This document shows, piece after piece, positions 2,356-63,157 of a DNA stretch of 64,000 bases; position 1 is the stretch's first letter; every line of letters starts with the position of its first letter. The stretch is taken from contig JAFCMP010000051.1 in assembly GCA_017506865.1 (NCBI GenBank), positions 1 to 64,000 on the forward strand. The letters are read 5' to 3'. The DNA is from Tribonema minus. Its lineage: Eukaryota; Sar; Xanthophyceae; Tribonematales; Tribonemataceae. The notes below the pieces were generated by a model. That model worked only from the letters and a program-made list of their open reading frames with translations, was not told the origin of the DNA and made no database searches. Position numbers and translations under genes: made by a program.

Positions 2356-5300
2356 CTGTTGTAGAACGCCGCCGAGCGTTGCTGCGCATGATGCCACTGC
2401 AGAGCGCACATCCGCCTCCTCGTCTTGGCTGGCAGCGCGCAGCTGCGGCACCTGCGGGTTGCGAATAAGGTTTGAGGTTAATAGCAAGTTTGGCAAAAAA
2501 CGGTCAAAGAGGGTTGCGAGGAATCCATGCCTGAAAAGGGGGTCGGGAACTCTGCACCGCATAGTAGATTTGCACTTACCGCAACAGACGTGCCAGACTG
2601 AGCACTGAGCACGCTGTCAATCTCTCGGGCGCCTGCAGGTTGCGAATCAGGTTTGAGGTTAGATGTTACACCTGCTGCGGTCGTTTAGAAGTGATCGGCA
2701 ATGCGCGTTCAGAAGACACGTGTAGATTCTGGCTGCAAGTCCATGGACATCCGCCATCGGGGTTCTCGCGCCTTGAGCGAGAATTAATCAGGAGTACACC
2801 TGCCGCAACAAACGTGCAAGCCAGACTGAGCACTGAGCACGCTCTCGATCTCTCGGGCACCTGTAGGTTTTGAAAAAGGTTCGGGATTACATTTGCACCT
2901 GCCGCAAAAAACGTGCAAGCCGGACTGCGCACTCTTGCAGGCCAGACTGAGCACTGCTCATGCTCTTCATTGTGCGTGGCAGTGCTCAACTGCGGCGCCT
3001 GCGAATTAAGGGTTAGAGATAGCGGCACCTGCAGGTTTCAGATGAGAGAAAGAAAGTTGACAAAACATGTGCCACAGTGATCGTGCGGAGCTCAGCTGAG
3101 CACTGAGCACGCTCTTCATCTCTCGGCCGGCAGCGGTCAGCTGAGGGGTAGGGATAGCTAGGGTTTGAGGTTGCACCTGCAGAGAGACAGAGCGCTCGGC
3201 GTTGTGCACCAGGGTAGGCAGGTATGGCGCAATGTTGTCAGCGCTCAGCGCCACTCAACAGGGTAGGTTGGTATAGCACAATATCGTCAGCGCTCAGCAA
3301 CACTCACCAGGGAAGGTAGGTATAGCGCAATGTCGTCCCCTGCGTAGCGAATGAGCCGCTGCAGCAGCTGCACGGCGCGGTGGCGTGACTTGACGGTCCA
3401 GTGGCCTATGTCCTCCAGCGTTGCTGGCATCATCTGCAGCAGCGCAACGCGGACATGGGTGCATGCATAAGTGCGGGATCAAGATGGTGGGCTGACGCAG
3501 GGGTGGATCAAGTGAAGGATCAGGGTTTGATCATGGTCTAGTGGCCTACGTCCTCCAGCGTTGCCGGCATCATCTGCAACGCCACGCAGAAAGGGACATT
3601 GATCAGCATTAGGGTCTGGGCGCGTGAGATTGGAATCAAGGTGGTGGTGCTGACGCAGGGGGGGCACACTGATAATCAGGGTTTGTTCATGGTCCAGTGG
3701 CTGATGTCCTCTAATGTTGCCGGCATCACCTGCAACAGCATATGGTCGAGGACATGAGTCAGGGTCAGGGTCAGGGTCAGCATAGGGCATGGACGGGCAT
3801 ACGGTGGGGGGTTAGGGACCCAGGGGTAGGAAAAATCAGGGTGAAGGTGCGAGCATGGGGGGTGGAGACAAAAAATCAGGGGTTTGTTCTTGGTCCAGTA
3901 GCCCGTGCCATCTAGTACTGTTGGCATCATCTGCCGCAGCATGGCACCATGGATTTGAGCCAAAAATTGGGGTGAGGGCCAAGGCCAAACATCGTGGCTA
4001 CGCAGGCAGAGTGGAAGTTGAGGTTAAGGTTAGGGCTGGGGAGGGTTCACGGCAACACTGGCAGAATTAGGGTTTGGATCAGGGCTAGAGCGCGGACCCG
4101 TGTCCCCCAGCATCAGGTTAGGCATTGCTCAGAGGTAACGCATTCCTTGAGGCCTGGTGTCTGTTGTGTTCAGCGCTGCCAGAGGCATACCTATTCGCCT
4201 GCCAGCTCCTCCACTTTATTAAAAACATAATTACAAGAGCCTCGGTTTTGAACCCATTCCACCATGCAGTGGCAGCAAAGCGCTCACAGCTTGCACATGC
4301 CTCGACGCCTGTGGTCACCGCGCTGGGCCCTGCTGTTGAGCACTGCTGCAAAAAGTCAAGGCCGTCTTTTCATCAACAAGTAGGGACCAAAATGCCATTT
4401 AAACCGGATTGGGCATCCCCGCATTGAGCCTGCACCCTGCAAACGTCAGCAGTTCTACACATTCTCCTCGTCTCCAACGGTCCCTGCCCGATTGCGTCGC
4501 CAATTCATTGTCCTCATTCCGTGGCAAGGTCCAGGTCACTTTCATCCGACACTGGTGTGGAACTGCTACAGCTGTGTGCCCAGTCTTGCTGGTCGGTGCC
4601 CAGCAAAGAGAGATGCAGCTGCTGCTGCCTATTGCAGACTCCTTGCTGAAACTTCACACTCTTGAAGACCTGTTCCCCCGGTTCAGGCTCCGTTTCTTCA
4701 TGCCCAATCTGAACGCCATACATACATACATACCACGGTGCCCTGAACAAGACCTTACCTTGGGCATCTGCGACAGACAATACGCCTTGGCAGCCTGGCC
4801 ATCCTCTGTAGGGGCTGCAGAAGGGGGATGAGGGGGGTGCGCCGGCGATTCTGGTTGGTCCACATCCATATCCGCCACCTGTGATTGGTGGGTCGCCCAG
4901 AGTTGTCCCAGTTCATCCACCTGCACAGTGCCAGCGACAAAAGTGGGGGTGAGTTCGGCAAGCGCGCAGAAGGGGCCATCGCAACAGGCAAAGTGCGCAG
5001 CGTGTGCATTCATCCATTCATTCATTCATTTACGCCGCTTCATTCATGAAATCATTTGTGGTTGCCTCACAGGTCGCTCTGCCGCATCATGAGCCGCCTT
5101 GGTCGCAGCCTGCTCCATGATAAGCAGCGCCAGCAGCAGGTGTCGGTTCATGCATTCATTCCCGCTGCTTCATTCATTGGTTCATGTGTGATTCACCAGC
5201 CGCTCCGCTTCGTGCGCAACTTTCATCGCATCGTCAGCCTGCTTCATGATGAGCAGTGTCAGCAGCGTGCACGTTCGTTCGTGCACGCCAATTCATTCAT

Positions 5301-8300
5301 GAATTCATCCGTGACTCACCAGTCGCTCCGCTTCGTGCGCACCTCCTATCGCGTCTCTGCCTGCTCCTGGATTTGCAGTGCTAGCAGAGTGTGTGTCCAA
5401 TAATCTGGTCATTCACATTGTTTGATTCATGAATTGATGAGTGACTCACCAGTCGCTGCGCTTCATGCGCCACTTCCATCGCGTCATCAGCCTGCTCCAT
5501 GATGAGCAGCGCCAAACAGCGTGTGTGTTCATTCATTCATTCACACCGCTTCATCCATGGATTGATGAGTGACTCACCAGTCGTTCCGCTTCGTGCGCAA
5601 CTTCCGTTGCATCGTCAGCCTGCTCCATGATGAGCAGCGCCAACAGCGTTGCGTGGTGCGGGGCAAGGTAGGCAGCACGCGGCTCACTCGTCACGAGCAG
5701 CCGCAGCAGTCGCGCTGCAACAGCAATGACAGCAACCAAGACACACGCAGGCACAGAAAGGGAATGATTCACAACCAGTGAAGCAACTTCCAAGTGGACA
5801 TATTTCGAAGTTACTTTAGCGTACTTTTGAAGCATGCACAATAATGTGAGGTAGGCAGCGCGCGGCTCACTCGTCACAAGCAGCCGCAGCAGTCGCGCTA
5901 TGACAGCAACCAAGGCGCATGCAGACACAGCAGCGGTGAGGCAAATGGCAGTTGAACATGCAGTATGACGCAGGCGGCGCGGCTTGTGTGGCCCGGGAGC
6001 CTGCAAAGGACAGCTGATGCCGCCGCCCACTGCCCCGCAGCCTGTGGCGGACGTTGTCAGGTGCGCAGCCCACAGCGGTGGCAAGCGCAGCAGCCGCAGC
6101 AGCAGCAGCAGCACCGCACACTCTCGAGACACAGATGAGATGTCAGCCAACAATATCTATTGTTTTAATTTTAAAATGGTGGTGGTCTGCTCTGAAAAAC
6201 GTTGAGTGCTGCTCACCTAGTGCCTTTCCAAGCTCAAGTCGGACCGCAGACGTCCTGCCACACACAGAAAACAGCACGGCAAACACATCAGCAGCGACAG
6301 CAGATGTGCCGTGCGCTAAGAGGATTGGTGCAGACCATGCAGCAATGCTCAGCCACCAGCAGTGTGCGCCCCGTATCAGCGCATACTGGACTTCTGCTGG
6401 AATACTTCAATCAGCAGCATTGCACATGTTAGCAATCACAATCGATTGGGCGCTGACGTGTTGCAAATAAGCTTGACATCATTATTGAGGTCAAGGCAGC
6501 ACTGCTTCATCCTCCAGCGGCTATCGTAATGATTGCCGGCACAAAGCACGGCGTCGTGCTGCAAAGCTGCGAAGTCACTGCACGTGCCACACCGAGCTAA
6601 TACATACCCTCAACTGCAGACATGGCATCAGCCGAGTCAATGAGGTACTGGGTCTCCACCAGTGGGTCAAAGTTGAAGTTATCTCAGATCGGGGTTCGGT
6701 GGCACGTCACCTGTCGAACACGAGCTTGTTGAGCCGTGGCAGCTCCTCAGAGTGTGTTAGGGCTAGCTCATCAGTGCTAGGTGTGGCACGTCACCAGTTG
6801 AACGAGCTTGTTGAGCTGTGGCAGCTCCTTGAAGAACGTATCAGGGTTAGGGTTAGCTCAAACTAGGGTTGGGTGGCACGTCACCTGTCAAAGACAAGCT
6901 TGTTGAGCTGTGGTAGAACCAGCTCCTCCAGCGGTTTGGCCAGGTCATCGGCGCCGCAGGCGAGCAGCAGCGACAGACCCTCCACTGTCAAGTTGCACAT
7001 GCAACAGGGGGGCGCACGAGGGTGCCTACAATAAGCTTTAAATCTTGTTGAGGATTCAGGGAGGCAGGGCCCTCCACTGTCAGTTTGAACATGTAATAGG
7101 GGACGCACGAGTGGTGACTACAATGCTGTGACTGACCTCTGATGTCAAGTGGTACATGGGACGCATGAGTGGCAACTACGATGAGCTTCAATTTCGTTGC
7201 ACATCCGGGGGGGCAGGACCAGGTACAGCTGCTCACTCCGTGCAACACAAAGCACGCAACTGATTAGGGTAGTGCATGTACTGTTCTTGCAGTTACAGAG
7301 TTTCAGGAAAATGTTGTACCACGACTTCATGATGTTGTCACAGCATCAGTCATCCAGCATAATCATAATTATGATTGCATGCACACGCATGAGTCAAGGC
7401 TGCGAAATGCAGAAGAGCCAGAAAGGCTGGTGAGGCAGAGAACAGGCGAAACGCCGCAAGGCATGCTCTGGCCTACAGCACAGCCACAAGCTCAAGTCAC
7501 CTGTCATTTGCCGCGTCTTGGCATGCTGGTGCCCTGAACACGCACACATTCAAACAGGTACAAGCGCGTCAGCACAGCACGTACAATTTGAAGGTATACA
7601 TGTATATCAGCTAGGGTGCACAACAAAGTAGCCCTGCATAGTCGCCAACGCAAGGCAGAAGATGCAATACCTTAGTGACAAGGCACGGCTCAACAGTGTG
7701 TGAGGAGTCAAGGCCTTCTGAGCACTGACGTGCTTGCTGATACAGGTGTCCTGAACACGCACGCATTCAAAGAGTTACAAGTGCTTCAGCATAGCACATA
7801 CACTTTGCAGGTATACACGCATATCAGCAACAGTGCACAACAGAGTAGCCCTGCACGATCGCACGCACAAGACGGAGAATGCTGTGGCTTAGTGACAAAG
7901 CACGGCTCAACAGAGTGTGAGGTTGAGTCAGGGCCTTCTGAGCACTGACGTGTTTGTTGATCCAGGTGCCCTGAACACGCACGCATTCAAAGAGGTACAA
8001 GAGCTTCAGCATAGCACGTACACTTTGAAGGTATACACGCATATCAGCAAAAGCGCTGGTCCCCAACGATCACTTTGGGCAATGCATGCCCTGGTTGAAG
8101 TAGGTCTTGAACTACACATGGTGCCTCTGATGTGATGGTCTCAAGCACGGTGGTGAGGCCTGCGGTCGCACTAAGCCGTTGAGCACTGTTATGGCAGCGC
8201 AGGTACGCTGTGTCTTTAAATCTAGCCCTGTCGCCCTGCGAGAGCCTATCCGTGACCCTGAGAACCCCTCGTCGATTTCTGTCTCTGCGCTGCGTGCAAC

Positions 8301-17818: not shown

Positions 17819-35047
<17,229 letters not shown>

Positions 35048-36845: not shown

Positions 36846-39800
36846 ATGGAAGAGCAACAACAGCAAAGCCCTCAGATGAAAGTCTTCGTCTCTGGTTGCT
36901 ATGACATCCTGCACGGTGGTCACGTTGAGTTCTTCTCCCAGGCGAGGGCTCTCGGCGACTACCTCATCGTGTCCTTCGCATCAGATGCGGTGCTGGCGGC
37001 GCACAAGCACGGGCGGCGATCTAGCATCCCCACCGAGCACAAACGGAAGCTGATCGGTGCACTGCGCATGGTGGACGAGGTGGTCGTGGGCGAAGGGCAC
37101 AGGTCAGGGCTGGACTTCGAGGACCATTTTTTGCGCATCAAACCGCAGCTGCTGGTGGCGACGGAGGACGACAAGTACAGCGGAGTTAAAAGAGAGCTCT
37201 GCGCAAAGGCGAGTGTGCTGCTGTAGCTGCTGCCTCTGCTATAAGAATGATTCCTTCCATGGCAACTTCCTGAATATACCTGAAGAGGCTGGGCACCACT
37301 GGGGCTGCTTCTGGTGTAGTGAATAATAATCAGTGTCTCTACATCGCCACCATGGCCGAAGGTAATCATCAGAAATCTGTATTGCAAAACTGCATGGTAG
37401 TTGCGGTGAGTGCAGGCGGCAGTGTCAGAAAATACGTGGTGGATGTCGAGTCTGAGTGTGCAAGGTTGCATGTCGCGCACATTGTAGAATGACCTACTCT
37501 TTAAAGGTTAGTGGCAAGCACTCATCCCACCGTCCTGCACCTTATGTGCCACAAACCGCAGCAGAGCCTTTGCTATGACAAGCATAGACTTAAATCATAA
37601 ACGATAGTGGGCACCAGTGTCATTACCTGGATCCTGCGCTTACAAACACACTTTACCGCGCGCTGAACAGGAAGCCTTAGAATGCAAGATCTCCCCCATC
37701 CAAATGGTGGAATGCTACAAGTTGCATGCCTGGTGCCCCAACTCCCTCTCAACAGTTCCAAACATTGTTGTTGCCAGCTGTTACACAAAGAAAATACAGG
37801 CGCTCTCTGCTAGTGGGAGGCACAAGCTACCGCGCATGTACTAGTAGTCTGATCCCGCCCCAAGCAAACCCAAGTTTGAACTTGGCTTCACACGGACACT
37901 GGCCAGGGGGAGTCACATCCTTGCTGACACATGGACTTTGACCCTCTGTGATGACAAGTGCTCCCTTGTTTTGCACCACAAGCGGTAGCAATCAGCCTTC
38001 GCCTGCCTGACCACTAGCGCGCTAGGCCGCCAAAACAGTCAGCATCACGCTACTGAGCATCATCCTACTGAGCAACATCACCTCACTTCCGCAAGTGGGC
38101 GCGGAATACGTAACCCGTAACCCTCCCCAAAAGCCTCGGCTACACGACGGTCAGCACCAGCCAAGTACTCGCGGTATCCAGCCGTACGCTGCACTATTAC
38201 ACCCTGATACGCCATCACACAATGATAATCTACTGAGTGTCATCCCCTTACTGAGCATCATCACCTCACCACACACAGGTTGGCGCGGAGTGCGTAAGCC
38301 TGTCCACAACCCTCGGCCACGCACAGCCAGATACTCACAATACCCAGCCTTCCGCCGCACTCCTGCACCGTGCTACGCCGTTAAATCATGATCGTCTGCA
38401 TCCCTTATGTGCTCTGACCCCACAATCGCAGGTTGGCGCGGAGTACATAATCCTCCCCAAAACCCTCGGCTACACCCCCGTCAGAACCAGCCAAATACTA
38501 GCGGTATCCAGCCTTCGGCTGCACCATCACACCGTGCTATGCCGTCACACAACAATGGCCTACTGATTATCATCCCCTATCTCCTCTGACCCCACAACCA
38601 CAGGTTGGCGCAGAATACGTAATTCTGCCCAAAACCCTCGGCTACACGCCCGTCAGCACCAGCCAAATTCTCGCTGCGATACGCGCCCCTGAGCGCTGCC
38701 CCCTGCGCGTCGACTTCGGCGGCGGCTGGCTAGACGTCCCCAAACACGCGCGCGAAGGCGCTTTCATCGTTAACTGCGCCATCACGCCCATGGTCGCGTT
38801 GGATGAGTGGGGGTACCACATAGGGGGGGGGCTGGGGGGGTCTGCGGCGTATGCGCTGCTGCGGGGGTGCGACGCCGTGCAGAGCGAGCTGGATCTGGGC
38901 GTCGGCTGGCAGGTATGTATGTAGTGCCAACAGGTATGTATCCTGGCAGGTATGTAGGTATGTAGAAATACGTACGCGCTGCTGCGCGGGCGCGACGCCG
39001 TGCAGAGCGAGCTGGATTTAGGGGTCGGCTGGCAGGTATGTATGTATGCAGTAATATTATAGTGCTAAGCTGGGGGTAGTGGACCGGGGGGGGGGCTGCA
39101 GAGTTTACAGCGTGCAGAGCGAGCTGGACCTTGGGGTGGGCTGGCAGTATGTAGGTAAAAATGGCATTACCTTTGCACAGACTAGTAGTGTGCAGAGCGA
39201 GCTGGACCTGGGTCGGCTGGCAGGCGTGGTGCTAACCTTGTTTTACAGGGCCAGGGTGTTTGAAGCATGGCACCATGCTAATCTTGTGGTACGGGACTGG
39301 TGGTATTGCAGCATAGCACCGTGCGTGAGCGAGCTGCACCTGGTTGTGGGCTGACAGGTATGTATACAGCAGCCTGACAGTAGGTAATCTGGAAGAGAAA
39401 TTGTAGCCTTTGGGGGTTGAGGTATTTGTGGCACATGTGCGTGTGCTGCCGCATGGCTGCTACACGGTGCTAAGCAGGCTGGATCTGGCCATGGACTGAG
39501 ATGGCTAGCTGCTTGACAACTGACACATGGTGGGGGTATGCTAGGTGCCATAGCGGGGTATGCTAGGCATGCGGCGTCATGCGCTTGCTGGGTCTGGGCG
39601 TGGACTGGCAGGTATGTAGGTATGATAGCACAGCACCGTCATGTGCTCAAGTCATTATACCTGCGATTATCTGTGAAGTCGAAACACTTCACTCAGCACT
39701 CACACACACTCCACACTAGTTCTTGTAGTTAAGTATCGCACCCGTGTCAATGACATACTCAGGAGATCTATGCTCTTGGGCGCAGGACCCGGCAGTGATC

Positions 39801-45560: not shown

Positions 45561-45800
45561 GTCAGCACACAACGTAGCACTTGATTGCGCGCTTCTCACG
45601 ATCAAAGCCCAGCCATGCGTGCGCACACACTGCACCGAACTTGCTGACAAAGCGCTGCACCAAAGTCGCAGCACTGCCCCATACCCAAGTGAAAAGAGTT
45701 CTGCCCCCGTCACCCACGCTGAGCCCTTGTAGAGCAGCGTGAGCACGACGTGCCACCCCATTGCGCGACTCTCGCGAACAAAGCCCAGCCATCCGTGCGC
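45560..45800 (-). repeat. Two copies of the IspF terminal exon end
   Basis: Segments near 45560-45645 and 45720-45815 repeat the 3' end of exon 3 (SVGESRAMECHVVLTLLYKG in the intact copy), at about 145 bp spacing. They lie beyond the real stop at 45855-45857, so they are either 3' UTR or past the transcript end. Confidence 0.85.
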
Positions 45801-45854: not shown

Positions 45855-48800
45855 CTACGCCGACCCCTTGTAAAGGAGCGTCAACACGACGTGGCACTCC
45901 ATCGCGCGGCTCTCGCCTACCGAGTCCACGAGTTCGTGCGTGCGCGCTTTGACGTTGACGCGCCCCGGCGGCGCATGTAGCAGGCGTGCGATGTTATCGG
46001 CCATCGCCGGCTTTATGTCGCGCACTTTCGGGCGCTGCAGGATAAGGGTGACGTCGACGTTGCCGATTTCGTAGCCGCGCCCCGCCATGCGTCTGTAGGC
46101 CTGGTACATCGATGAAATAAAGAACGCATGAACAAGGGAATGAGTGCATGAACGAATGAATGAGCGAATTAATGAATGAACAAATTGATGGATGAATGGA
46201 TCATCAGATAAATGTGAGCGCCCGTGACCAACTGATAAAAGTGAGCGCCCGCAGGCCTCACATAGGTACATGAAAGTCATGGAAGACGAATGCGAGAGTG
46301 AACTGATGAACGTGAGAGCAAGGGTGACGTCCACATTGACGAACTCGTAGCCGCGCCCCGCCGTGCGCCTGTAGGCCTGGCACATGAATGAATTCATGGA
46401 TGATTTGGGGAAATTGATGAACGTGAGCACCTGCAGGCCTTAGGTCGTGATATATGAAATGACTGCACAAGATTATTGACAAAATATGCATAATATGTGA
46501 GCGCCTGCAGGCCTCAGGTTGGAACATGAAGGTCATTCAGGAGTAATGGAAGAGTGATCTGATGAATGTGAGAGCAAAAGTGACGTCCACATTAACGAAC
46601 TCGTAGCCGCGCCCCGCCATGCGCCTGTAGGCCTGGCACATGAATGAATTCATGGATGATTTGGGGAATTTGATGAACGTGAGCGCCTGCAGGCCTTAGG
46701 TCGTGATATATGAAATGACTGCACGAAGTTATTGACAAAATATGCATAATATGTGAGCGCCTGCAGGCCTCAGGTTGGTACATGAAGGTCATTCCGGAGT
46801 AATGGAAGAGTGAACTGATGAATGTGAGAGGGTGACGTCCACGTTGCCAATATAATGTACCGCCTGCCGGCCGCAGGTCGATACATGAAAGTCATGGACG
46901 ACAAATGCAATGAATGCGAAAGTGAACTGATGAATGTGAGAGGGTAAAGTCCACGTTACCAAACTCGTAGCTGCGCTTCGCCATGCGCCGGTAGGCCTGA
47001 ATGAGTGCAGGAATGAATGATTGAATGAACGAATTGATCAATCGATGGATGTGAGCGCCTGCAGGCCTCAGGTTGGTACATGAGGGTCATGTCTCAGGAT
47101 TAATTAACAAATTAATGAACACAAGAATATGTTAGGGTGACGTCCGCATTGCCAATCTCGCAGCCGCGCCCTGCCATGCGCCTGTAGGCCTCAACGTGAA
47201 TGAATGCATGCATGAATGCATGGACGAATTGATCAACTGATGAATGTGAGCGCCTGCCGGCCTAGGTCATTACATGAACGCCATTGCAGACGGATGAGAT
47301 GAATGCGAAAGTGAACTCTTGAATGTGATGGGTGATGTCCACGTTGCCGATTCTGTAGCCGCGCCCCGCCATGCGCCTGAAGGTCTCTACATGAATGAGT
47401 TCATGGATGATTAGGGAGAATTGATAAATATGAGTGCCTGCAGGCCTCAGGCCATGGTACACGAAGCACTGTACAAAATTATTGACAAAATATGCTAAGA
47501 ATGTGAGCGCCTGCAGGTCTCGTCAGCCTTGCGTGCTCACTACAACCAACCCCACACTACAGGCCCGTTCGGTCTACTGCTGCAGCTGCTGAGAACAACC
47601 ACAGCCACCGAGTACCCTGCCTCATCTGCTTTGAGCACTGCTGCATCTGGTGAGCAGTGAGCACTGCTGCAAATGCAGGCTTAGCAGATGAAGCAGTGCT
47701 CAGCACCAGCACCGCAACATTCACCCAAACCCCAGAGCACAGCACATGCAGCAGTGCTCCACTCAGCACATGCAGCAGAGCTCAGCAGCAGGCGTGCCAG
47801 TACTCAGTGGCTGAGGCAGTTCTCAGCGGCCGCGAGGCAGCGGTCAGTGACGGAGGCAGCTTGTTTGCCCATCGCATGTCACGCTGCTGCTCACCTCCTC
47901 CATAAAAATGCTGCTGTCAGAGCCGCTCCACTGCGGGTCGTTATCGGGGAACAGCTGTCCGATGTCGGGCATGCACAGCGCGCCCAGTATCGCGTCGACG
48001 ACGCTGTGGTAGATGACGTCGCCGTCGCTGTGCGCCTCCGCCCCCTTCTCAAAGGGGATGTCCACGCCGCCTATTACGAGCTTCTTGCCCTCGGCGAGGC
48101 GGTGAATGTCGTAGCCGTGGCCGATGCGCACCGGCAGGTCCTGTCGGCACGGCGGCGACAATAGCGTGGAGGAGGTTCATGTGCAATATTCATTGTGAAG
48201 ACACTACAAGTAGTACTTGGAAGTGTACAAAGTCTGTAGATCTATTGAAACGGTGGATGTCGTAGCCATGGCCGATGCGCACCGGCAGGTCCTGCCGCGT
48301 GCAGCAGTGTCGAGCATACATTGGTTGATGCATGTACGCTGACGTATACATGTATGTACACGATGTAGACTAGTATTCAAGCACAGCTGTACGCTTCTTG
48401 CCCTCGGCGAGGCGGTGGATGTCGTAGCCATGGCCGATGCGCACCGGCAGGTCCTGTCAGAATGGCATGTACAGATGGTTGATTCAGTGTATACATGTAC
48501 TTGAAGTACAGGAAATGGTATTGAAGCACATATATATGCTTGTGTATGCATACAAAGCGGTGGATGTCGTAACCGTGCCCGATGCGCACCGGCAGGTCCT
48601 GTCGGCACGGCGGCGACAATAGCGTAGAGGTGGTTCATGTGCAATGTGTAATGTTGAGACACTTCCAGTAGGTATTTGGAAGTGTACAAAGTCTGTAGAT
48701 CTATGAAGCGGTGGATGTCATAGCCGTGGCCGATGCGCATCGGCAGGTCCTGCAGCACACAGCAGCGCCGCGCATACGTGTGTACACGTGTGGTTGATAT

Positions 48801-51800
48801 GTGCACTTGAAGTATGATACTTCTATAGGAGCATGTATGTGGAGGACTTCGTATGCAACCATACAAATAGTTGTGGTTCTGTAGTACTTCGAATTTATAC
48901 AAGGCGGTGGACGTCGTAGCCGTGCCCGATGTGCACCGGCAAGTCCTGCCAGAGCGTAGATGTAGATGATATGCATTCAACTGTCAATATTAGCAACATA
49001 CCTCAAAGTAAACGAATTAGGTTTTCAGAAGTGTATAAAGTCTGTAGATTATGAGCGATGAATGTCGTAGCCGTGCCCGATGCGCACCGGCAGGTCCTGT
49101 CAGCGCGGAGCATACATATGGTGGTCAGTGCTCTCATGCATGGCAGTGTAGAAGTACAAGGTTCAGTATGCAAGCATACACATAGATGTGGTTCTGAAGT
49201 ACACAGTGCGGTGGATGTCGTAGCCATGGCCGATGCGCACCGGCAGGTCCTGTGCGCACAGCTGTTAGAGTATACACTTGATGTGTACTTGTGCATACAT
49301 GTAAACAGAGTATGTATGCAGTGAGCATGTGGCCGATGCGCACCGGCAGGTCCTGCAACGCGCAGCAGTGTCCAGCATACATATAGTTGATGTGTGTTAC
49401 GATACGCAAAGCATACACGATGGCAAATGTACGCTTCTTGCCCGCGGCGAGGCGGTGGATATCGTAGCCATGGCCGATGCGCACCGGCAGTTCCTGTCGA
49501 GAACGTGAAGGTGGTTGGTACATGTACTTCGGAGGTATTACACTTCAGGGTACATATACATAGTACTCAAGCACATACGTAAGCTTGTGTAAGTATACAA
49601 AACGTTGGATGTTGTAGCCGTACAACATACACAAATCAGGTTTCAGAGGTGTACAGAGTCTGTAGATTTGTGAGCGGTGGATGTCGTAGCCGTGTCCGAT
49701 GCGCACTGGCAGGTCCTGTCAGAATGGCAGCCGCGAAAGTGTCCAGGTGGTTGACTAAGCATTTGTGTAGGCAGAATGTAGTACTCAAGCGTATGTACTT
49801 CGAAGTATTCGCCTGTGAAGTATACATGAAGGGGATGGCTTAGCCGTGGCCCATGCCCACCAACAGGCCCTGTGCGCACAGCCATCATATGGAAGTAATG
49901 TGTATGTGTACATCACATCTAGAGAGTATGAACACAGAGTTCGCGACCAATGTACATCAGCAGGTCCTGCACAGCATGAGGGAGGATAGAGGTGGTTTTG
50001 TATGTGTACATACATACCGAATACGAATTGCTAATGTATTTCTGAAGCACCAAAGAAAAACTTACTCTGAAATACGGAGTGTATGCTCAAGGCCGGCCTG
50101 CATGCATTGCAACATATACACTTCCAAACCCCCACTTTTTCTGGAGTATAAGGCTCGATGCGAACCAGAGGGCGCTGTGCCCATGGCAGCCAGAGCATAG
50201 AAGATGTGTGGTATATGTGTGTGTGTGTGTATACAGGAATCCAAACCTGAAATTACAAATACGTACTTGAAGCGTGCATATTCGGAAATAGAACAACTAA
50301 TCACCACGGTATAGTGATTGGCCTCGTTTGCCCGGCCGTAGCACGGCGAAACGGAGCTGATCTCAAGGGTTGACCCTCATGAGCCAGCCCATACTGGCAT
50401 GACGAGGTAGGCATATCTACTGCTTCTTGTGGATGCTCGTTGTCAGTGACCTGACTACTGGAGCTCGCGTGAGATGACACTAGTTGCAATGATTAAGTAC
50501 GCAATGAGCCAAATGTTGAAGTTTGCCATGCGGCGCAACACACTGGATGTGACTGCATCCAGTGACTGGATGTCATTGCACTGCACAGGCAGGTCCTCGG
50601 GTTAGGTCTGGGCAAGAATTAGCAGCAGATTTTGAAGCAGCAGATTTTGAAATGAAGTTGGGGTTAGTATTGATTCATCACATGCCAGTGCTTTCCAATA
50701 GCAAAAGCGATTGGTTCCCCGCGCCGCGTGCATGTGCAAGCATGGTCGCAGCGACTACGGCTCAAGTTAGCGCTCTTGGATGTCATGTTGTAGGTTGGGA
50801 AACTGTTTTGCCGGGGTTTGATTGTGCGAGGGAGAGGCGCAGGCGAGTGTACTGGCCAACTGGTTGGGAAAGTCTGACCAGGTAGTGCGCATACCTTATC
50901 AGTTGAAGTGCACCTGTCTCTTTGAACAATGCGATTCACTCCCCACTGACTCAAGCAGCGCTCAGACCCCCCTATTTGAAGTATGGGGCTATCTCATGTA
51001 CGAGCCTGCGCCTCAAAAGTGACTAATGTAGCACATGCATGCGGGCCCATGCTGTATGAGGTGTGCGTGTGGGGGGGGGGGGATCGGGTTGCTTCAGCCT
51101 GCAGTGGGTTTGAGCATTTTGTGTGCTGGTGTTGGTACGACAACATTAGTGCTAGGCTCATGAGAAGTGGACTTGCTGCTGCCCAAGCCATGGCAGGCAG
51201 GCAGGGCGGCCACATGCTTGCAGGCTGAGCCTTGTGACAGCAACCGGTTTGCAACCACGTTCATTGACCCAGAGCGCCACAGCCAGGTCACTAGATTCAA
51301 GGTTTGTATGGGTATGGTGGTCACACGCTGGCACATCAGCGCATTTGCGGATGCTGCAAGCCCATGAAATACTGCAAGATGGGAAGCCACGCACAGAGTC
51401 TCCCATCTTTGTTCATGCTCTTGAACATTTGCAGATGATGAGTCGCTGAAGGCACAGCGTCATGGAATGTTTCAGGCGCTGACATGCAGCCGTGGCTGGA
51501 CCAGCAAGTTGCACTGTGACATGCTCTTGTGAGCAGATTCGGCACTCAGATTCCGCAACTGGAAGTACGTGCATGATTTCACACATACACGTGCGCACGC
51601 AGTCTGTGCTGCACCTTTTTGTGCTCAGAATTAGGCCACTTACCCCCGATTCTGCCGCCAGCATGTGCAATTGCCGCTGCTGCGCGCCTCCCCCTCTAGT
51701 CCGCAACCAAGCATGTTGTCCTATGCTGGTGTTGATGATGCCTGGCGACCCCACAAACCCGTGCACGAGGCATGAAATGCACGCCGAAGCCACGAAAGCT

Positions 51801-51938: not shown

Positions 51939-53842
51939 ATGGAGGCCGCATCGAAGCAGGATCAGCATGGCGCAGCTGATGTGGTGCTCACAATGGCGTT
52001 CTCGGTGCCGGGGCCGACACCGCAGCATGCTTTCTCCAGCAGGGGCGATGAGCCGGAGTATGCACCCACGGTGGCTGACGCCGACAACAAGTATACACAT
52101 GCCTATACTGGAAGACATGACGACGGAGCGCTGCCTGAGATGAGAAGAGGAGGCCCGCACGAGGCTCTGATGGTGGCTCTCATGGTAAGAATTTGATTTT
52201 AGTGCTGCAAAGTTCAAGTCACACAAAGGATCTCAGGACCCACGAAAACAGAGACTCTGCTGTTAATAACACATACATTTTGATTGCGCCTGTCCAGAAA
52301 ATCTTGCAGACCTGCAATTGTACGGAATCAAGTGGGCTGCAGAGAAATCATGCTTGCATCATCACTCTCATGCATCTCTCCTCGAACGCTCTATCAAACG
52401 ATGCATTGTCAACAGTGCGATTCGGCACACACTCACTTTTGGCAGTTGTGGCTTGAAGAGACTTGCTCCACTGCACATGGCGCGCGCTTCGCGTGGCGCA
52501 CAGTACTCGCAAAGTAATGGTTTATGAAATGGCATTGGATTCATTGGACTGTGCAATCATTCACAACACCAGCACGTCACAGTAGAACCTTGCCGGTCAG
52601 CGTCATGCTGGCACCAGGGTTGTTACGGTCGAGCCATATCATTGCATGCGATCGTAATCATTGGCGGTAATGCGACTTGTTAGAAGTGATCGATATCCGC
52701 GAGCCGGCTACTGGCCATAAGCGAGTATGGCAGACCATCATAGAGAACTTCCAAAATCTCTCGCTGCTCGCGCTCGCTCTCGCTCGCTTGCCACGCCCTC
52801 ACCTGAGCTCACACCGATCCTGTGCGGAAGGACAAGTGGGTGTGCGGGCCTGCGACAAAAGGTTCAGGCTGCCCCACCTTGATTTCGTTGGGCAGCTGCT
52901 TTGGAAGCAAACTCCAACACCAGCGCACCTACAGCTGCCGCAAAGCAAACATACTGCCGCCAAGCGGGACATAAATGAGCAAAGGAGGAGAAGGCGAAGG
53001 CAGCCGACCTGCTACGGCTGCAACGCTTAAACGCAATAGGGTTGACCTCTAGAAAGCGGACAACTTCGCTGCTTTTGGCGGCAGGGTTAGGGTTAGGGTT
53101 AGGGTTAGGATGTAGCTCTCCAAGTGTGTTACTTGACGTCCTTCACGGAGCTTCAAGTGCCCTTAAGCTCAAACCCTAAAGGTAGGGTCAGGGCTTGCTC
53201 GTTGCCGCTGACCAAATGAATACAAGCGATCGTTGACATCGCCGATCATTGCTGTCGTTCACTTCTCGCTCGCAACAACCTTGGTTGCCACATCTGCTGC
53301 CAAAGCTCTTGTCAAAGTGTACTGTGATATTTCCTCACATACGTAGATATCAAGGTGGCTAATGCAACAGATATGGACGCCAGTCGTGTGCTGCTAGAAT
53401 TGTACCGTGGTCTTTCCAGGGGGTGTAACCGCCGTAACCGTCAAGCGAGCCAACGGCAATGAGCATGTAACTGCCATATGCCTTAACAGCATCACATCTC
53501 TTTATTGTGCATACATGACAGGCTGCGCAGGCCGACAGCGATGCCTTCCTGACGGCGGTGATTGACTACGAAAAGCAACAACAGCCGCTGCAGCAGCAAC
53601 AAGTACAACGGCAGCAGCCATCTAAAGCGCCGCAGCAGAAGCGCGCTACAGCAAAAAAGCCGACCAGCTCACCACGGCAACCAGCTGTGAAGCACAAGCT
53701 GCAGACCGAGATTGTGGGTGGCGAGGAGGCAGGGGAGGGGGGTGCAGGGGCAGCACCACAAGTAGGAGCACCGGAATTAGCAGCGTCGGCGGCAGCAGCA
53801 GCAGCAGCATCTCAGCCAGCAGAAAAGCGACTGTGTTTATAA
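51939..53842 (+). CDS. Hypothetical low-complexity protein
   Basis: Two exons, 51939-52184 and 53522-53842, both phase 0, give 188 residues. The ATG sits in a good context (CACCACCATGG). Exon 1 encodes a polar acidic stretch with a LTMAFSVPGPTP segment. Exon 2 encodes ADSDAFLTAVIDYEKQQQ, then a Gln-rich and Lys/Pro-rich region (KRATAKKPTSSPRQP) and an Ala run before EKRLCL and the stop. It is likely intrinsically disordered and possibly nuclear. I do not recognise a family. The splice is supported only by phase, site strength and the good start; an extra exon between them cannot be excluded. Confidence 0.55.
53083..53109 (+). repeat. Interstitial TTAGGG run
   Basis: Four consecutive telomere-type hexamers in an intron. 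Similar short runs lie near 1077-1092, 12150, 29670-29690 (C-rich strand), 30750-30765, 33250-33270, 56585-56600 and 57001-57030. Confidence 0.85.
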
Positions 53843-55838: not shown

Positions 55839-56215
55839 TTGCGTAGCATATGAACCCATCATTCCCAACTGGCGCCATGGCGCTGCTGCACGTGAAGCTG
55901 TCTCTGCACATCTCGCAGCTCAACCTGCACGAGCGCAGGCACGCCCACTCAAAGCGCTCTTCATGGAGCGCGCCGCGCTCAAATGATTCATCCCGGTGCC
56001 ACTGCTGCAGAGTGGTGGTGTGCCTCACGGCTCAACACGCGCGCGTGTGCGCGCACGCGTGGAGCGCTCTTTATTGAGCGTGCAGCAGCCACAAAGCGTG
56101 CAGTGCCATAGCGCGCAGAGCTGTGGCACACTCCACAACCAGCAGCCCACACGAATGTGCACTGGCGTGCACACAGGCGCAACGCTCTCCTCCGCGCAGC
56201 GTCCGCAGCAGCGGC
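55839..56215 (-). repeat. Copies of the ankyrin gene terminal exon end
   Basis: Segments near 55840-56000 and 56040-56215 repeat the 3' end of exon 6 (ERDGFVRYASAARSM region and the CKSGAALA region in the intact copy). They lie beyond the stop at 56228, paralleling the post-stop copies at IspF. Confidence 0.75.
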
Positions 56216-56227
56216 GGCAGCGCTACT

Positions 56228-59200
56228 CTACATGGAGCGCGCCGCGCTGGCGTAGCGCACGAATCCATCCCTCTCTGCCGCCGCCTTTGCCGCCAACGCG
56301 GCGCCACTCTTGCACACGAAGCTGTCGCGCGCCTCATCTAGCAGCGCGCGCACGTCGCGACCGCCGGGCGCGCGCGCGAGAGCAGCGCACGTGAGCGCCG
56401 CGTCGTCGGCGACGGCGCCGCCGCTGAGCAGCGCTGCGACGGCGTCCGCAGCGCCGACGCGCGCGGCGAGCGACAGGGGGGTGGCGCCGGTGGAGTCTGC
56501 GGCGCGGGGGCGCGCGCCCGCGGCGAGCAGTGCTTCAACGAGGCGTTCCATCCTGCGCAGCAGCGCTCAGGACGGGGGGTGGAATTAGGGTTAGGGTTTG
56601 TGATTGGGGTAGGGGTAGGGTCAGGGGTAGGGTTGGGGTGGAGTCTGCGGCGGGGGGGCGCGCGCCCGCCGCGAGCAGGGCCTCGACGAGGCGCTCCATC
56701 CTGCAGCAGCGCTCAGAAGGGGGTGGAATTAGACCTTGACTCAGGGTTTGAGGTAGGGTTAGGGTGGAGACGCGGGGGCGTGCGGCAGCTCTCAGGACGG
56801 GGATGGGATTAGGGTTAGGGTTAGGAGTAGGGGTAGAGGTGGGTTAGGGTCAGGGCTGAGGCGTGGGGGCGCACGCCTGCGGCAAGCAGGGCCTCGACGA
56901 GGCGCTCCATCCTGCGGCGGCAGCGCTCAGGATGGAGAGGAGGTTAGCGTTTGAGGGGATAGGGGTAGGGGCAGGAGTAGGGGTAGGGGTAAGGTCAGAA
57001 TTAGGGTTAGGGTTAGGGTTAGGGTTAAGGGTGAGGCGCGGGGGTGCGCGCCCACGGCGAGCAGGGCGAGTAGGGCCTCGGCGAGGCGCTCCATCCTGCG
57101 ACGGCAGCGCTCAGGAGGGGGGTGGAGTTAGACCTTGGGTCAGGGTTTGGGGTAGGGTTAGGGTTAGGGCCAGGGTTGAGATGCAGGGGCGCGCCCTTGC
57201 CGCAAGCAGGGCTTCGATGAGGCGCTCCATCCTGCGGCGGCAGCGCTCAGGAGGGGCGTGGAATTAGGGTTAGGGGTAGCGTTAGGCGTATGTTGAGTGC
57301 CCACCAGGGCCTCAGCGAAGCGCTCTATACTGCAGCGGCAGCGCTCAGGCTGACAATAGAGGTAAAGTTCGAGTTTGGAGGAGGGGTAGGGTTAGGGTTG
57401 GGGTTGAGGGTTAGGGTTGAGGGTTGAAGGTGCAGTTGGCGCCGCGGTGGCAGTGCTTTGGACAGAGCGAGGATTAGGGTTGAAAGTGAGGGAAAGGGGG
57501 GCGGGGTAAAATTGGAGGTTAGACTGGCTGAAAGCAGGGCCTCAATGCAGAAGGCCAATCTGCGACGTAGCACTAAGGACGAAGTTGCAGTTGGGGTTAG
57601 GCTCACGGGTATAATTGGGGTGGAGTGTAGTTGTCGCAACACAAGATGTGCTAGAGAAGTACTTCTACTTTGAGGTTACTCGCCGCATTGCTTGGCAAGC
57701 TTTACACTCAAAGCAATGTGCTCTGACCATGTTCAAGGTGAATGTGCTCATTGCAGCACATGGCTCACGCGAGAGTACTTGCGGCAGAGAGCTGATACAT
57801 ATGTTGTTGTTTGAAGTGGGGCATGCCTTGTCTTTACCGCTTGATGGTGATGGTGAAGCGCACCCGCTGCGTGCCCAGGAGTGGCTTCGCGCTGTACATG
57901 CAACTGCTGCTGGATGTTATGTACACATACTACTCCAGAGCACTGCGTTTACTTCTACTTGCGAGGGGGAAACGCACTTGACGAGGCTGGCACATGGAAC
58001 ATAGTGTGCCCTCGCGGCAGTGCAAGTCAAAGCCTTGAATTCCGTGGGGGGCCCCCCACCTCTGGTATGTCAGCATCTATTGCGGCGAAACGGGGAGAAA
58101 AAGGCTTGAAAACACCAGCAATTATGCAATATGCAGCCGTACCTGAGTGCACAAGCGACGTGCAGTGGAGCGTCCCCCTTGAAGTCTGCCATGGCGACCA
58201 GAGCGGGCCGCTGCCGCGAGTGACATGCCGCCAGCAGGTCCAACGCTGTCTGCGGGCCAGCATGCATGAAAAGAGTACCGTGAGATGATCACAGATGTCA
58301 TGTGATGGGTGTACGTATGGGTGATGGTCGATGCAACTCAACGGTGCGGTATGCGCTTCAGCAGGTATCAAGTACATGTACATGAACACATACATTCAAT
58401 GACCCTGCGCCCCCCCCCCCTCCCCCCCTCCAATTCCCTCCCTCCTCCCCCCCATCGTCAAGATCCGCCAACTTTTGACTATTGCAGGTGCGCTCTACTG
58501 TACTGGTTCCTTGTACCTCCTCGTGACAATCGATGAATGCGAGCACAATCGGTGTCCCTGATGAGCACTGCTGCGCCCCAAGTCTTGCTCAAGATGTCAG
58601 CCAGGGCACGCACAGGCGATGGTGGTGAGTATGGTCCTACCGTGTTGATTGTTGGCTGCCGCGAATGCACTCGATCGCCTGCGTACATACCTTATTGTCG
58701 CAGTTGATTGCGCGCACATGCATGAGGGCCTGATGAGCACTGCTGCGCTCATGGCAGCGAGCGCTGCCGCAAGCCGCGTCAAGATGCTATCTTCGGTACA
58801 TACCCACAAGTGACACTGTAGTTGTTCGTTGTCACGTTTGCCGTCCAAGTGGATGTCTCAGTACCTTTTCGTGGTTGATGACTCTCACTAATCACTGCTG
58901 CGCCCATTGTGGCAAGCACTGCTTTGATGTTGTAATAATGACAAACAATTGCAACTAAAATGATGATTCATCCTGCAATTGCGCTTCGCCAAAGCTGTAC
59001 ATACCTCCTCATGGCAGTTGATGCATGCGTGCATGGAGGCTCTCCTGCCATCGGCATGATGTTCCTCAACGAGCACTGCGGCGCCCATGGAGACTCGTGC
59101 TGCTTTGCATTATTATCACAAATAACTGTTGGTACTGATTATTGTACATTGTAATTGCACTCTGTTGAAGTAGTATGCACCTTCTCGTGGCAGTTGATGC

Positions 59201-62200
59201 ATGCGTGCATGAGCGCGCACCTGCCATCAGCATCTTCGACGAGCACTGACGCACCCATGGAGATGAGCGCTGCTTTGTCTTCTTATTACGAACAACTGTC
59301 AGCATTGGATATTGTATATTGCAGTTTGCCAAAGCTGTACGTACATCTTCGTGGCGGTTGATGCATGCGTGCATGAGGGCGCTTCTGCCATCGGCATCCT
59401 CGACGAGCACTGACGCGTCCATAGCCACAAGCGCTGCTGCGAGCTCGCCATGCCCCATCAGACACGCCATCATGAGCGACGTAATTCCCCCGCGTTCGTA
59501 GAGTGGCGGTGCAGGTTCGCCTGTCGCGAACGACAGGGGTGGGTAGAAAGAGGAAGTGATTGGGGCTCCGTGAGCTACAAGTTCAATGCGTCTGTGGCTT
59601 TGTCGGAAGGCGCAATGAGGAAGTGGTCACAGGGTTAGGGTGCGGGTTACTGAGGTTGGGGGTAGGTTAGGGCTAGTTGAGTACCTAGTCGTGGCTTTGT
59701 AACTGCCTGCCACGACAGGCAGGGGCAATGAGGCAGTGGCCGTGGCTCCGTTGAGCGACATAGTTTTACGCCATGAGAGCGGCGTCATCCCGCCACGCTC
59801 GTATAGTGGCGGCGCAGGTTCGCCTGCCGTGACACGCAGGGGTAGGCACAATGCGGTGGCTCCGTTGAGCTACAAATTCAGTGCATTTGTGGCTTTGTAA
59901 CCGCCTGCCATGACAGGCAGGGGCAACGAGGAAATGGTTGTGGCTCTGTTTGGCTACATGGTCTAATGCGTGTGTGGTTTTGTAGCCGCCTGCCGTGACA
60001 GGCAGGGGCGGGCAAAATGAGGAACTCGTCGTGGCTTCGTTGAACTACATTCAGGTAGTGCTATGCATTTGCTGGCTACAAGATTGTAGGCTACAGCATC
60101 CCGCGTCAGTCTACTGCACTCGTGAAATGGCGGCGCAGGTTCGCCTGCCGCGATCGGGTACAGCAATGAGCAAACTTTTTTATTGCATGGGCAACCCGGC
60201 CTCCATTGGGGCCTTCATAAATACCAGTCCACAAGTACAGCAATCAGCTCTTCAGCTATGGCCTGCGCACCATCAGGTGACAGTAGTATGGCTAGGAAGG
60301 GGCCTTGCATCACTCCGCGCTACACGCATCAGGTGCATCGCACATGTATATGCACTGCACAGACTTGTGGGCTGCGTGTTTAGCATGTTAATTGCGGATT
60401 GACAAGGGCTTGCAGATTGACGAGGTGGTGGTGGCAGCGCTCGCCCTAGCCCTATCCCTAACATTAACCCTAAGCTACATATTACTACTCCGAATTCTGT
60501 GTTTTGTGACTCTATTGAGCTCCAAGTTCTACTTCAAGAAGTATGTGTCTGTGGTTTTGAAATGGTTACAAGATATACGCTACAGAACCTCAGTTACTGC
60601 GCACTGTTTCTTCGAGCTATGAAAGTGGATGCATGCAAGCTCTTTCAAGCAGAAAACAGAAAAACCACTGCCGCTACTGCAACAAAGCTTCTCAGACCGC
60701 CGCTGACACCCTCACTGCCTGTACGACACAGCTGTGTGACACACTACACTACATGTACAACATGGTTCCCGAGGCGTGTTGCACTACAACACCGCCTGGG
60801 CGCACAGTACATGTGACTGTTTGACACAGTGTAGATAGTGCATGTGTTGTACACTTGACACAGCGCATGTGTACACAAGTTGCATATTTTGCTTGTGTTC
60901 ATAGGGTTTTTGCCTCTGAAGCAAGAGTAAGTGAAGTACATGTAAATATGACATTTAAGATGTGTCCATGTACTTTGCAAATTGATGTGCAGCAGTTCAC
61001 TCACCTTTTTTACATTGCTCCGCTGGCTGAACGAAGGTGGCTCGATCGATGTTGGCACCATACTTCACCAGCACTTGACATGTGACCTTGCAGCCGCAGA
61101 TTGTGGCAGCGAGCAGCGGAGTGAGTCGCTGCCGGATGCCTAGGCTTGGAACTTCAACTTCAGCTGCGGGGGGGTCTGCAGGCGCACCCTGAGGAAGAAG
61201 CACATTGAAGTTCATACATTGCAGGTGGGATGATAACATGATAACAATTTTACCAAGAGAGCATGCACATGTGGACAGTTCACTGCACGACGGTGTAACG
61301 ACGCTTTGAGAGGAGAAGTGAAATACTGCTACAGTCATTGGCGAATCTGTCCATGAACGCGCAGGGCCACCGTACATTCTCCAACTTCAAGTTCAACTGG
61401 CACAGCATCACGTCACCAATACCTCACGAGCACATTGCACATTTACTACTCACTCACACCCACATTAGCAATCCGGTGACAGCTCAGGCGCCGTTGATGA
61501 GTGTGGCGTATACCAGTACTGTTTACCAATACTTGAAGTAGTACCAACAGAACATCATTCAACTTCATACTGTTCATCTGTTCTGGTACCTATAACTGTT
61601 TTCGAGAAGAACTTCTGTCGTGATAAAGCAACCGCTGGACTGCTTCATCTGGTGTGATGATAGTACACTGTTGTGATGAAGCGACCGTTGGCTGCTTCAC
61701 CTTGCGCAGCATCATGCCGGCGAGCACTGGCGCGCTGGCGCCAACCAAGCACGCCCACAGCAGCGCTCCGGCGCCGTCGCTGTTGACGAGCGTGAGGTCG
61801 GCCCCCGCGTGTGCCAGCACAAACGCGACCTCGATGTGCTCTTGCTGCAGGGCCAGCATGAGAGGCGTGTTGCCGTGCGCGTCGCGGATGTTGAGGTTGA
61901 CGCCGGGGTGAATCTGCACATTTGAGGGGGGGGGGGGGGGGGTAGGAGCTGATGAGGCTGAATTGAGATTACAGGAGGGGGGGAGGGGGGGGGGGGGCAT
62001 GGAACTTCAGTGTTCAGATCAGAGGTCAAGGCGTTGGTTAGAATTGGGAGCATTGGCGGCGGGTTGCCTTGTGCGTTGCGGGTGTTGAGGTTAACGCAGG
62101 GTGAATCTGCACGTTTAGGGGGGGGGGGGGGGGGGGGGGGTTAAGGGGCTGATGAGGCTGATTTGAGACTACAGGAAGGAGGGGGGGGGGCATCAATGTT

Positions 62201-63157
62201 CAGGTCAGAGGTCAAGGTGTTGATGAGAATTGGGAGCATGTTGGGCGTGTTGTCAGGGCATCGTGCAAGTTGAGGTTGATGATGAGGTGCAACTGCGCAT
62301 CAGAAGTGAGGGGACGGGGGGGGGAGTGGAGGGGAACAGGTCATGGGAGCTCTGTGTCTCCTTGAACTGCTACACCATCATTTCAGCACTACCACACGTT
62401 TCAGTTCGCCTCCAGTTTGACGGCACAACGTTTCACAACAGGGCCTCAGCCTCACTCAGTGGCAGTCACTCGGGCACATGCCACAACGCGCTGCTCTCAC
62501 TAGCACGCAGCCATGCTACCATTCAACTCGACGCTTCACCAGGGGCGGAAAATAGGAGGCTCAGTATGCCGTGATGCTCACCTTGGATGGGTCAATCTTG
62601 CATTTCAGCCGGCTGCCGGGGGGGCTGCCAGCCACCTTCGCGCTCGGGCGGCCACTATCGGCAGACAGCAATGGCATTGCAATCGGACCGCCACGAGGCG
62701 ATCCCGGCGGCGCAGCCGCAAGAGCGCGCGGCCGCTGCGGCTCTGCATCGAGCGGCGGTGCGGCGCAGCGTCGCGCGTGCGGCGGCGCGCGGCACAGCAG
62801 CGCCGTCACCGCCGCGGCGTCGCCGTCCCTGGCCTTCTCCAGGAGTCCTGAGCTCCACGCGAGCGACCACGCGAGAGAGGGCGCGCTGCCACTGCCGCCG
62901 TTGCTGCCGCTGCCGCTGCCGCTGCCGCTGCCGCTGCCGCTGCCGCTGCCGCTGCCGCTGCCGCTGCCGCTGCCGCTGTCGCTGCCGCTGCCGCTGCCGC
63001 TGCCGCTGCTGCCTTTGGCGCACAGCGCTATGATAGGGGTGTCAGCGGGCGGCACGGCGTCCGATGGCACGCACACGCGCGCTGATGATTTCGTGTTGCG
63101 CGCGGGCGGCGGCGGTTCCGATGCGACAGATGCAGTCGCGGTCTGCAGTGCGTGCAT
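56228..63157 (-). CDS. Ankyrin-repeat protein with Gly-Ser linker
   Basis: Modelled exons, high to low: 63157-62582, 61913-61701, 61128-61005, 59520-59345, 58249-58143, 56552-56228; phases agree and give 506 residues. Exon 1 carries a long Gly-Ser dipeptide run (about 62895-63010) between a short N-terminal part and LLEKARDGDAAAVTALL. Ankyrin helices follow: HGNTPLMLALQQEHIEVAFV, GANIDRATF, DADGRSALMHACINRHED, KGDAPLHVACAL and TGATPLSLAARVGAADAV. A protein-binding scaffold role follows from the fold; no enzymatic domain is seen. The 5' boundary of exon 3 was chosen by phase and is the weakest point. An upstream exon near 63650-63790 (MAMTEKTVSASG on the minus strand) could precede exon 1. Confidence 0.75.
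56640..57580 (-). repeat. Up to six acceptor-side copies of ankyrin exon 6
   Basis: Units near 56645-56710, 56865-56925, 57035-57100, 57185-57245, 57290-57345 and 57530-57575 repeat the exon 6 start (MERLVEALLAAGAR in the intact copy) and its CTGCAGGATG-like acceptor. Between them lie G-rich segments made largely of TTAGGG and GGGGTA-type words. The intact exon is last in transcription order. Confidence 0.9.
58500..59260 (-). repeat. Donor-side copies of ankyrin exon 4
   Basis: Segments near 59160-59255 and 58985-59090, with weaker ones near 58700-58770 and 58510-58580, repeat the exon 4 end (VLVEDADGRSALMHACINRH in the intact copy). Period is about 170-180 bp. All follow the intact exon. 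Confidence 0.85.
59519..60165 (-). repeat. Acceptor-side copies of ankyrin exon 4 with hairpins
   Basis: Six related units (near 59519, 59704, 59819, 59905, 59987 and 60139) contain the acceptor side of exon 4. Most carry a short palindrome, CCTGCC and GGCAGG around a 6-base loop. The units near 59820 and 60139 also repeat the first exon codons (GEPAPPLYERGG-like). Spacing is 80-190 bp. Confidence 0.8.
60183..60240 (-). repeat. Dispersed repeat family, copy D (inverted, short)
   Basis: The reverse complement carries GGACTGGTATTTATGAAGGC and the GGAGGCCGGGTTGCC core of copies A-C. Only about 55 bp is recognisable. Confidence 0.65.
61914..62300 (-). repeat. Acceptor-side copies of ankyrin exon 2
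   Basis: Two copies of the exon 2 start and its poly-C tract lie near 62065-62150 and 62245-62330, spaced about 185 bp. They repeat the GVNLNIRDAHGN region in diverged form. The poly-G runs at 61927-61942 and 62119-62140 are the pyrimidine tracts of the minus-strand acceptors. Confidence 0.85.
62895..63010 (-). repeat. Coding hexanucleotide microsatellite (Gly-Ser)n
   Basis: Tandem GCTGCC/GGCAGC units inside ankyrin exon 1 encode alternating Gly and Ser. The plus-strand reading (Leu-Pro repeats) is an artefact of the same repeat. Confidence 0.9.

Follow-up and report, generated by a model that had tools for sequence, protein, structure and literature searches.

Introns made of copied sequence are known in several forms. 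Introner elements build introns from copied sequence that is dispersed through many introns, and in tandem exon duplication, which includes mutually exclusive exons, exon copies lie side by side in introns. In potato, one intron of an RdRp gene was gained when a segment of intron and exon was duplicated in tandem (PMC4974935). The same source and a second one (PMC2891723) present the Rogers/Hellsten model, in which a duplicated exon segment containing AGGT creates an intron; in the latter, some Drosophila introns are attributed to tandem duplication of proto-splice sites within exons. Direct repeats of 4-30 bp near both borders of an intron have been interpreted as insertion scars (PMC11782384). 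Here, we describe a further arrangement from the alga Tribonema minus (Xanthophyceae). We analyzed the first 64,000 nucleotides (positions 1-64,000) of contig JAFCMP010000051.1, from a genome of 158 Mb in 554 contigs, and refer to this whole stretch as the window. Introns of several of its genes, among them CCT5 and IspF, hold arrays of truncated copies of the adjoining exon edges.

Truncated exon copies in introns

The junction test covered 44 junctions in four loci, namely CCT5, IspF and one unnamed gene, which are the window genes that were tested computationally, and an ATPase gene in region L020 (contig C160). This region was also counted in a wider sample of twenty 10-kb regions (200 kb) from 20 other contigs, picked blind. 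Two other genes of the window, one with ankyrin repeats and one on the minus strand at 5.0-5.65 kb, were read by eye only. The CCT5 exons read by eye gave a protein of 401 amino acids that matched the EukProt transcript protein P0001 at 100% over the entire query, and one exon reading frame matched the Pfam family Cpn60_TCP1 (E=1.8e-25). P0001 places 18 exons at 17819-34505, and their joined translation equals P0001 residues 1-533. For CCT5, the one gene in which a transcript protein was compared, P0001 contained none of the truncated copies and read directly through the intact exons. For IspF, the translation of both exons agrees with the NCBI model; the protein assembled from the window exons is 100% identical to an NCBI protein labelled Tribonema, and the Pfam domain YgbB was recovered in the exon at 47895-48140 (E=1.1e-33). 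In the ATPase gene two exons were read by eye, the first of which matches Cation_ATPase_N. The single exon of the unnamed gene (38604-38912) had no Pfam match.

Truncated copies were found in the neighboring intron at 29 of the 44 exon edges: 20/34 in CCT5, 3/4 in IspF (coding end included), 2/2 in the unnamed gene and 4/4 in the ATPase gene. The first-pass annotation of this DNA had described a consistent geometry, with copies of the 5' exon part upstream of acceptors and copies of the 3' part downstream of donors. This was borne out, since 76 copies lay on the predicted side and 6 in the wrong-side intron, and inverted copies were absent from the introns beside the tested junctions. Within arrays, the intact exon stands last at acceptors and first at donors. 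All six wrong-side copies were hits of acceptor queries from exons of at most 83 nt, where the query also takes in the greater share of the exon's 3' part. The same geometry was recovered around coding segments predicted with a score trained on CCT5 and IspF, for which a threshold of 8 recovers 16 of the 18 CCT5 exons. Segments were counted at thresholds of 12, 14 (middle) and 16 (strictest), copies were sought within 1 kb, and matched non-coding windows served as controls. In the twenty regions, concordant and discordant partial copies stood at 49:1 at the strictest threshold and at 57:4 and 59:6 at the laxer ones, and in the window outside CCT5 at 19:0, 19:0 and 21:0 over the three thresholds.

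The duplicated units measure about 100-230 bp and extend into the intron. An intron flank resembling that of the intact exon (above the 99th percentile of controls) accompanied 47 of 66 copies; of the 19 copies without a recognizable flank, 11 belong to IspF. Among the copies of the four loci that cross the junction well, 49 of 56 keep the GT or AG, confirming that the introns contain many decoy splice sites, and these dinucleotides are conserved about as well as the bases next to them. Whole-exon copies were not seen among the 17 junction-spanning families of CCT5, where 28% were expected (P=0.003), an expectation whose unit lengths come from a by-eye reading of self-BLAST offsets.

The arrays are of local origin. 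Local direct repeats make up 29.0% of the window, and none were found in three dinucleotide-preserving shuffles of it. Among repeat pairs of at least 40 bp, 147 were near and direct, compared with 7 near inverted and 2 far direct pairs. When 200 kb of other contigs were compared, part of only one of 28 listed arrays found a match, and dispersed elements were rejected as the source of the arrays.

We then compared the substitutions in copies and intact exons. With the copy past the IspF stop codon omitted, 75 copies differ from their master at 157 of 2122 codon positions 1 and 2, at 204 of 1058 third positions and at 320 of 1841 positions of the intron flank. The corrected ratio of positions 1 and 2 to flank is 0.39 (95% interval 0.28-0.56); a copy drifting freely from a constrained master should give 0.5. 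Between copies of the same array, the ratio of positions 1 and 2 to position 3 is 0.72 (0.50-1.02; 16 arrays), where 0.5 to 1 is expected; third-position differences predominate in 10 of these arrays and the opposite holds in 6. Based on the copy-to-master and copy-to-copy ratios, the copies are passengers or nearly so: they drift close to neutrally, and constraint is retained in the real exon. Coding selection acting on the copies is improbable on the corrected counts, in which changes at positions 1 and 2 fall mildly short; a degree of coding constraint, or recent renewal of copies from the master, would account for this shortfall. A weak test for a period of three among repeat mismatches gave z=6.5 for CCT5, 2.6 for the twenty regions and about 0 for the first 17.8 kb of the window. 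Furthermore, the arrays are ordered by age: in 14 of 17, divergence is greater in the farthest copy than in the nearest (rho 0.39, P=0.002).

Excess of duplications at exon edges

In CCT5, 17 of 21 repeat families (81%) span an exon junction, compared with 7.9 by random shift (P=1.8e-5), and all 21 lie at a junction or within 15 bp of one. The excess persisted with exons masked, so that exon conservation could not aid detection: 11 of 16 families then abutted a junction, where 1.9 were expected (P=6e-8). The first-pass annotation had proposed repeated short tandem duplication in which only those events survive that leave one exon intact. We simulated uniform duplication with this survival rule, near-neutral decay and identical detection on the same CCT5 exons (the exon list used starts exon 12 one base late, which shifts only the third-position assignment in the last exons). 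On average 29-35% of simulated families crossed a junction, with a maximum of 58%, and 35-42% lay at a junction or within 15 bp, with a maximum of 68%. Simulated exons had copies less often than non-coding windows (0.27-0.31 vs. 0.48-0.57), whereas in the real gene exons have them more often (0.60 vs. 0.36), and the junction share fell when random deletions were added. Only when intronic duplications were accepted less often did the simulations approach the observed pattern, families near junctions averaging 74% at an acceptance of 1/10, 84% at 1/30 and 99% at zero. Set against 21 of 21 real families, these values call for a ten- to thirtyfold or greater excess at junctions. Duplications must be about ten times or more as prone to arise at exon edges, or to survive there. 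Of the mechanism first proposed, short direct duplication across exon edges with one intact exon kept stands, whereas uniform duplication is insufficient.

Exon-edge copies are also present on other scaffolds, as had been supposed. Repeat cover in the twenty regions ranged from 0 to 54%, and at threshold 14 copies were found near 29 of 108 coding segments and near 16 of 216 non-coding controls, an odds ratio of 4.6 (P=5e-6); at thresholds 12 and 16 the odds ratio is 3.7 and 4.2. In the window outside CCT5, the corresponding counts were 5/11 vs. 1/22 (P=0.01) at threshold 14 and 6/18 vs. 6/36 (P=0.18) at threshold 12. Counted by family at threshold 8, 40 of 63 repeat families of the twenty regions hold a predicted coding edge, where 27.2 were expected (P=2e-4; six wholly coding families are left out); at threshold 12 the count was 32 vs. 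17.6 (P=1e-5). For the rest of the window beyond CCT5 the family test lacked significance, with 17 of 32 vs. 15.0 (P=0.28) at threshold 8 and 9 vs. 5.9 (P=0.09) at threshold 12. Genes differ greatly in this respect, and region L010, which contains an alanyl-tRNA synthetase gene, had exon-edge copies at 0 of 11 predicted coding segments. The earlier statement that introns grow mainly by copying their splice junctions is therefore stronger than can be demonstrated, given that detectable local repeats hold 35% of CCT5 intron bases, or 28% with exons masked, and given that some genes, as in L010, show no copies.

Explanations for the junction bias

We favor, with moderate confidence, recurrent short tandem duplication at exon edges that leaves half-exons in introns and may acquire its edge bias through re-copying of the exon. 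Direct tandem duplications would recur at exon-intron boundaries, each covering one exon edge and the adjoining intron. The outer copy would hold only part of the exon, lack the partner splice site and become stranded in the intron, and the intact exon would keep working. New copies would arise mostly next to the intact exon, so that older and more decayed ones come to lie farther off, and would afterwards drift nearly neutrally. If exons are recognized as units with both splice sites, half-exons would be invisible to splicing and whole-exon copies would be purged; the lack of whole-exon copies in CCT5 fits the idea that copies with two splice sites are spliced in and then selected against. 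Least certain is the origin of the bias itself: an exon edge held constant by selection might stay a good partner for in-register re-copying, and purely intronic duplicates might lose their similarity and die out. Hints toward such exon-anchored re-copying come from the equal age of both kinds of copies (third-position divergence of 18.3% in the 19 flankless and 19.9% in the 47 flanked ones) and from a copy in region L008, whose identical exon part of 50-odd nt lies next to a strongly diverged spacer.

Several observations weigh against this explanation. Near-whole copies, which comprise more than 80% of the predicted segment, do occur in the twenty regions (6 of 67 at the middle threshold, 1 of 51 at the strictest). 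Among 32 young pairs (at least 86% identity), the spacer was at most 19 bp in 3 and resembled neither flank in 20, which plain tandem duplication does not predict; this sample may be biased by exon constraint, or filler DNA may belong to the process. Copies past the IspF stop codon suggest that splicing is perhaps not required. Single-pair families should show founding events, and re-copying alone thus predicts a weaker junction bias among them, yet in CCT5 11 of 11 lie at or near junctions and 7 of 11 span one. A simpler mask-shift test gave only a weak excess (17 of 34 junctions vs. 11.4, P=0.03). Finally, positions 1 and 2 change less than the expected 0.5, both relative to the flank in the 36 copies aligned on both sides (0.32, 0.19-0.51) and relative to position 3 in the copy-to-master differences of all 75 copies (0.34, 95% interval 0.24-0.52).

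The bias could instead be mutational, with a process tied to active splice junctions or transcribed exons, such as exon-limited RNA:DNA hybrids that end at exon borders, with local re-replication, making the duplications there. We consider this possible but on the unlikely side. It fits the position of the CCT5 families, since each of the 21, counting the 11 single pairs, lies at a junction or no more than 15 bp away; it agrees with simulations that needed an intronic acceptance well under one tenth of the junction rate, and it would explain why new copies appear beside the working junction though older copies hold much the same sequence. However, copies stand beside the IspF stop codon, and genes without copies exist, as in region L010. 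Slightly more doubtful is the broader proposal that working splice junctions are mutation hotspots, where re-copying coupled to transcription or splicing would let introns grow outward from their own ends and leave a layered, dated record of former exons. Uniform duplication with survival of one intact exon accounts for the geometry, the near-neutrality and the scarcity of whole-exon copies, but the simulations reject it for CCT5 on the share of spanning families, on the reversed frequencies in exons and non-coding windows and on the effect of deletions, and we regard it as very improbable.

Improbable, too, is that the copies function as alternative exons or as regulated splice sites and are subject to a degree of coding constraint. 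Such a role would be in line with the ratio of 0.34, with the 10 of 16 arrays in which third positions differ more, and with the frequent retention of GT or AG. On the other hand, the copy-to-copy ratio fits neutrality and 6 arrays show the opposite, GT and AG are no better conserved than their neighbors, the copies are cut off within the exon, and they are skipped in the one transcript protein. An assembly or sequencing artefact is highly improbable, as divergence of the copies from the intact exon reaches about 24% and comes with a codon-position signature and a distance-dependent age.

Mapped arrays and comparison with known systems

The positions of the intact CCT5 gene and of the arrays are collected in Table 1.

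Table 1. Location of CCT5 and of truncated exon copies in the window.
Feature	Position	Strand	Remark
CCT5 (TCP-1 epsilon) gene, 18 exons, intact sources of truncated copies	17819..34505	+	P0001 agreement, Pfam
CCT5 exon 2, acceptor-side copies (short exon part)	18454..18828	+	
CCT5 exon 4 (end 21126), donor-side copies	21087..21389	+	
CCT5 exon 5 (start 22361), acceptor array	21449..22453	+	copy junctions 21612, 21792, 21991, 22178; older copy 21449
CCT5 exon 5 (end 22627), donor-side copy	22558..22777	+	
CCT5 exon 6 (23427-23495), upstream acceptor copy and downstream donor copies	23206..23953	+	
CCT5 exon 7 (24117-24182) with donor-side copies	24117..24600	+	
CCT5 exon 9 (start 25822), acceptor array	25403..25873	+	
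CCT5 exon 9 (end 25973), donor array, four copies	25876..26502	+	
CCT5 exon 11 (end 27811), donor array	27752..28361	+	
CCT5 exon 12 (28835-28912), acceptor copy and donor copy	28493..29127	+	
CCT5 exon 13 (end 29788), donor array	29741..30035	+	
CCT5 exon 15 (end 31069), donor copy	31003..31245	+	
CCT5 exon 16 (31657-31778), acceptor array and donor array	31303..32460	+	
IspF exon 47895-48140, acceptor array, nine clear 5'-part copies and two weaker matches	48080..49971	-	
Last IspF coding exon (45855-46100), acceptor array, five copies	46044..47521	-	
IspF coding-sequence 3' end, truncated copies past stop codon	45539..45800	-	
Unnamed gene exon (38604-38912), acceptor array	38050..38674	+	exon edges by eye
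Unnamed gene exon (end 38912), donor array	38848..39630	+	
Unnamed minus-strand gene, donor-type array, four truncated copies	5017..5649	-	by eye
Ankyrin-repeat gene, donor array 58978-59438 and acceptor array 59464-60054	58978..60054	-	by eye
Ankyrin-repeat exon (start near 61907), acceptor array	61855..62334	-	by eye

Some further features were seen along the way. In the IspF acceptor array at 48080-49971 and the acceptor array of CCT5 exon 5 (21449-22453), mismatches between copies are enriched about threefold at third codon positions. The copies at the IspF end (45539-45800, minus strand) may need no splice site, or an unannotated intron of the 3' untranslated region may begin there. Intron 3 of CCT5 starts with GC and not GT (a GC-AG intron, window position 20504). 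Ordinary recent tandem duplications occur too, as seen in region L022 (5996-7288) with a 646-bp duplication of 99% identity. A dispersed element of about 70-110 bp was found in both orientations at 41793-41861, 43014-43082 and 60170-60238 of the window and at 2175-2243 of region L019; one of its pairs shows 100% identity over 69 bp between contigs. Telomere-like TTAGGG/CCCTAA repeats lie away from contig ends at window positions 9200, 29660, 30750, 33240-33290, 53083-53109 and 57381-57431, some of them in CCT5 introns. A (CGCTGC)n array of 21 units (62884-63012) overlaps long open frames.

Neither the lengthening of introns nor the way in which splicing distinguishes real from decoy sites is fully understood, and Tribonema appears to offer a natural experiment on both. 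Roughly extrapolated from the 67 copies in 200 kb at the middle threshold, the genome would hold tens of thousands of half-exons beside real exons, and most of those tested retain GT or AG. A mutational origin of the junction bias, if confirmed, would tie one particular type of local duplication to splicing or transcription. In practical terms, both the prediction of genes and the mapping of transcripts could be misled by the copies in this lineage.

Searches of the open full-text literature gave no account that we recognized of truncated exon edges arrayed throughout a genome. Like introner elements, the arrays are copied sequence in introns, but their units are local and not dispersed. Tandem exon duplication copies a whole exon with both splice sites, whereas the Tribonema copies are cut within the exon and lack one splice site, and in CCT5 no whole-exon copies were found. 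The potato RdRp unit (PMC4974935) carries intron tail, acceptor and exon sequence and is thus of the same kind as the acceptor-side copies seen here. There, however, one event produced a new spliced intron, whereas in Tribonema multiple truncated copies lengthen existing introns in many genes and are missing from the one known transcript protein. With the Rogers/Hellsten model (PMC4974935, PMC2891723), the arrays share tandemly duplicated coding DNA that becomes intron; they differ in that a splice site already present and intron DNA are part of the unit, and no new intron was seen. Instead of a new intron between two copies of one exonic AGGT, we find copies situated within an intron that already existed, whose flank they carry. 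Short border repeats (PMC11782384) are likewise direct repeats at splice sites, but the Tribonema units measure 100-230 bp, and a single border is their source. Tandem duplication of intron-exon segments as such is known; the arrays represent a novel form of it at an unusual scale, with the junction bias as its core.

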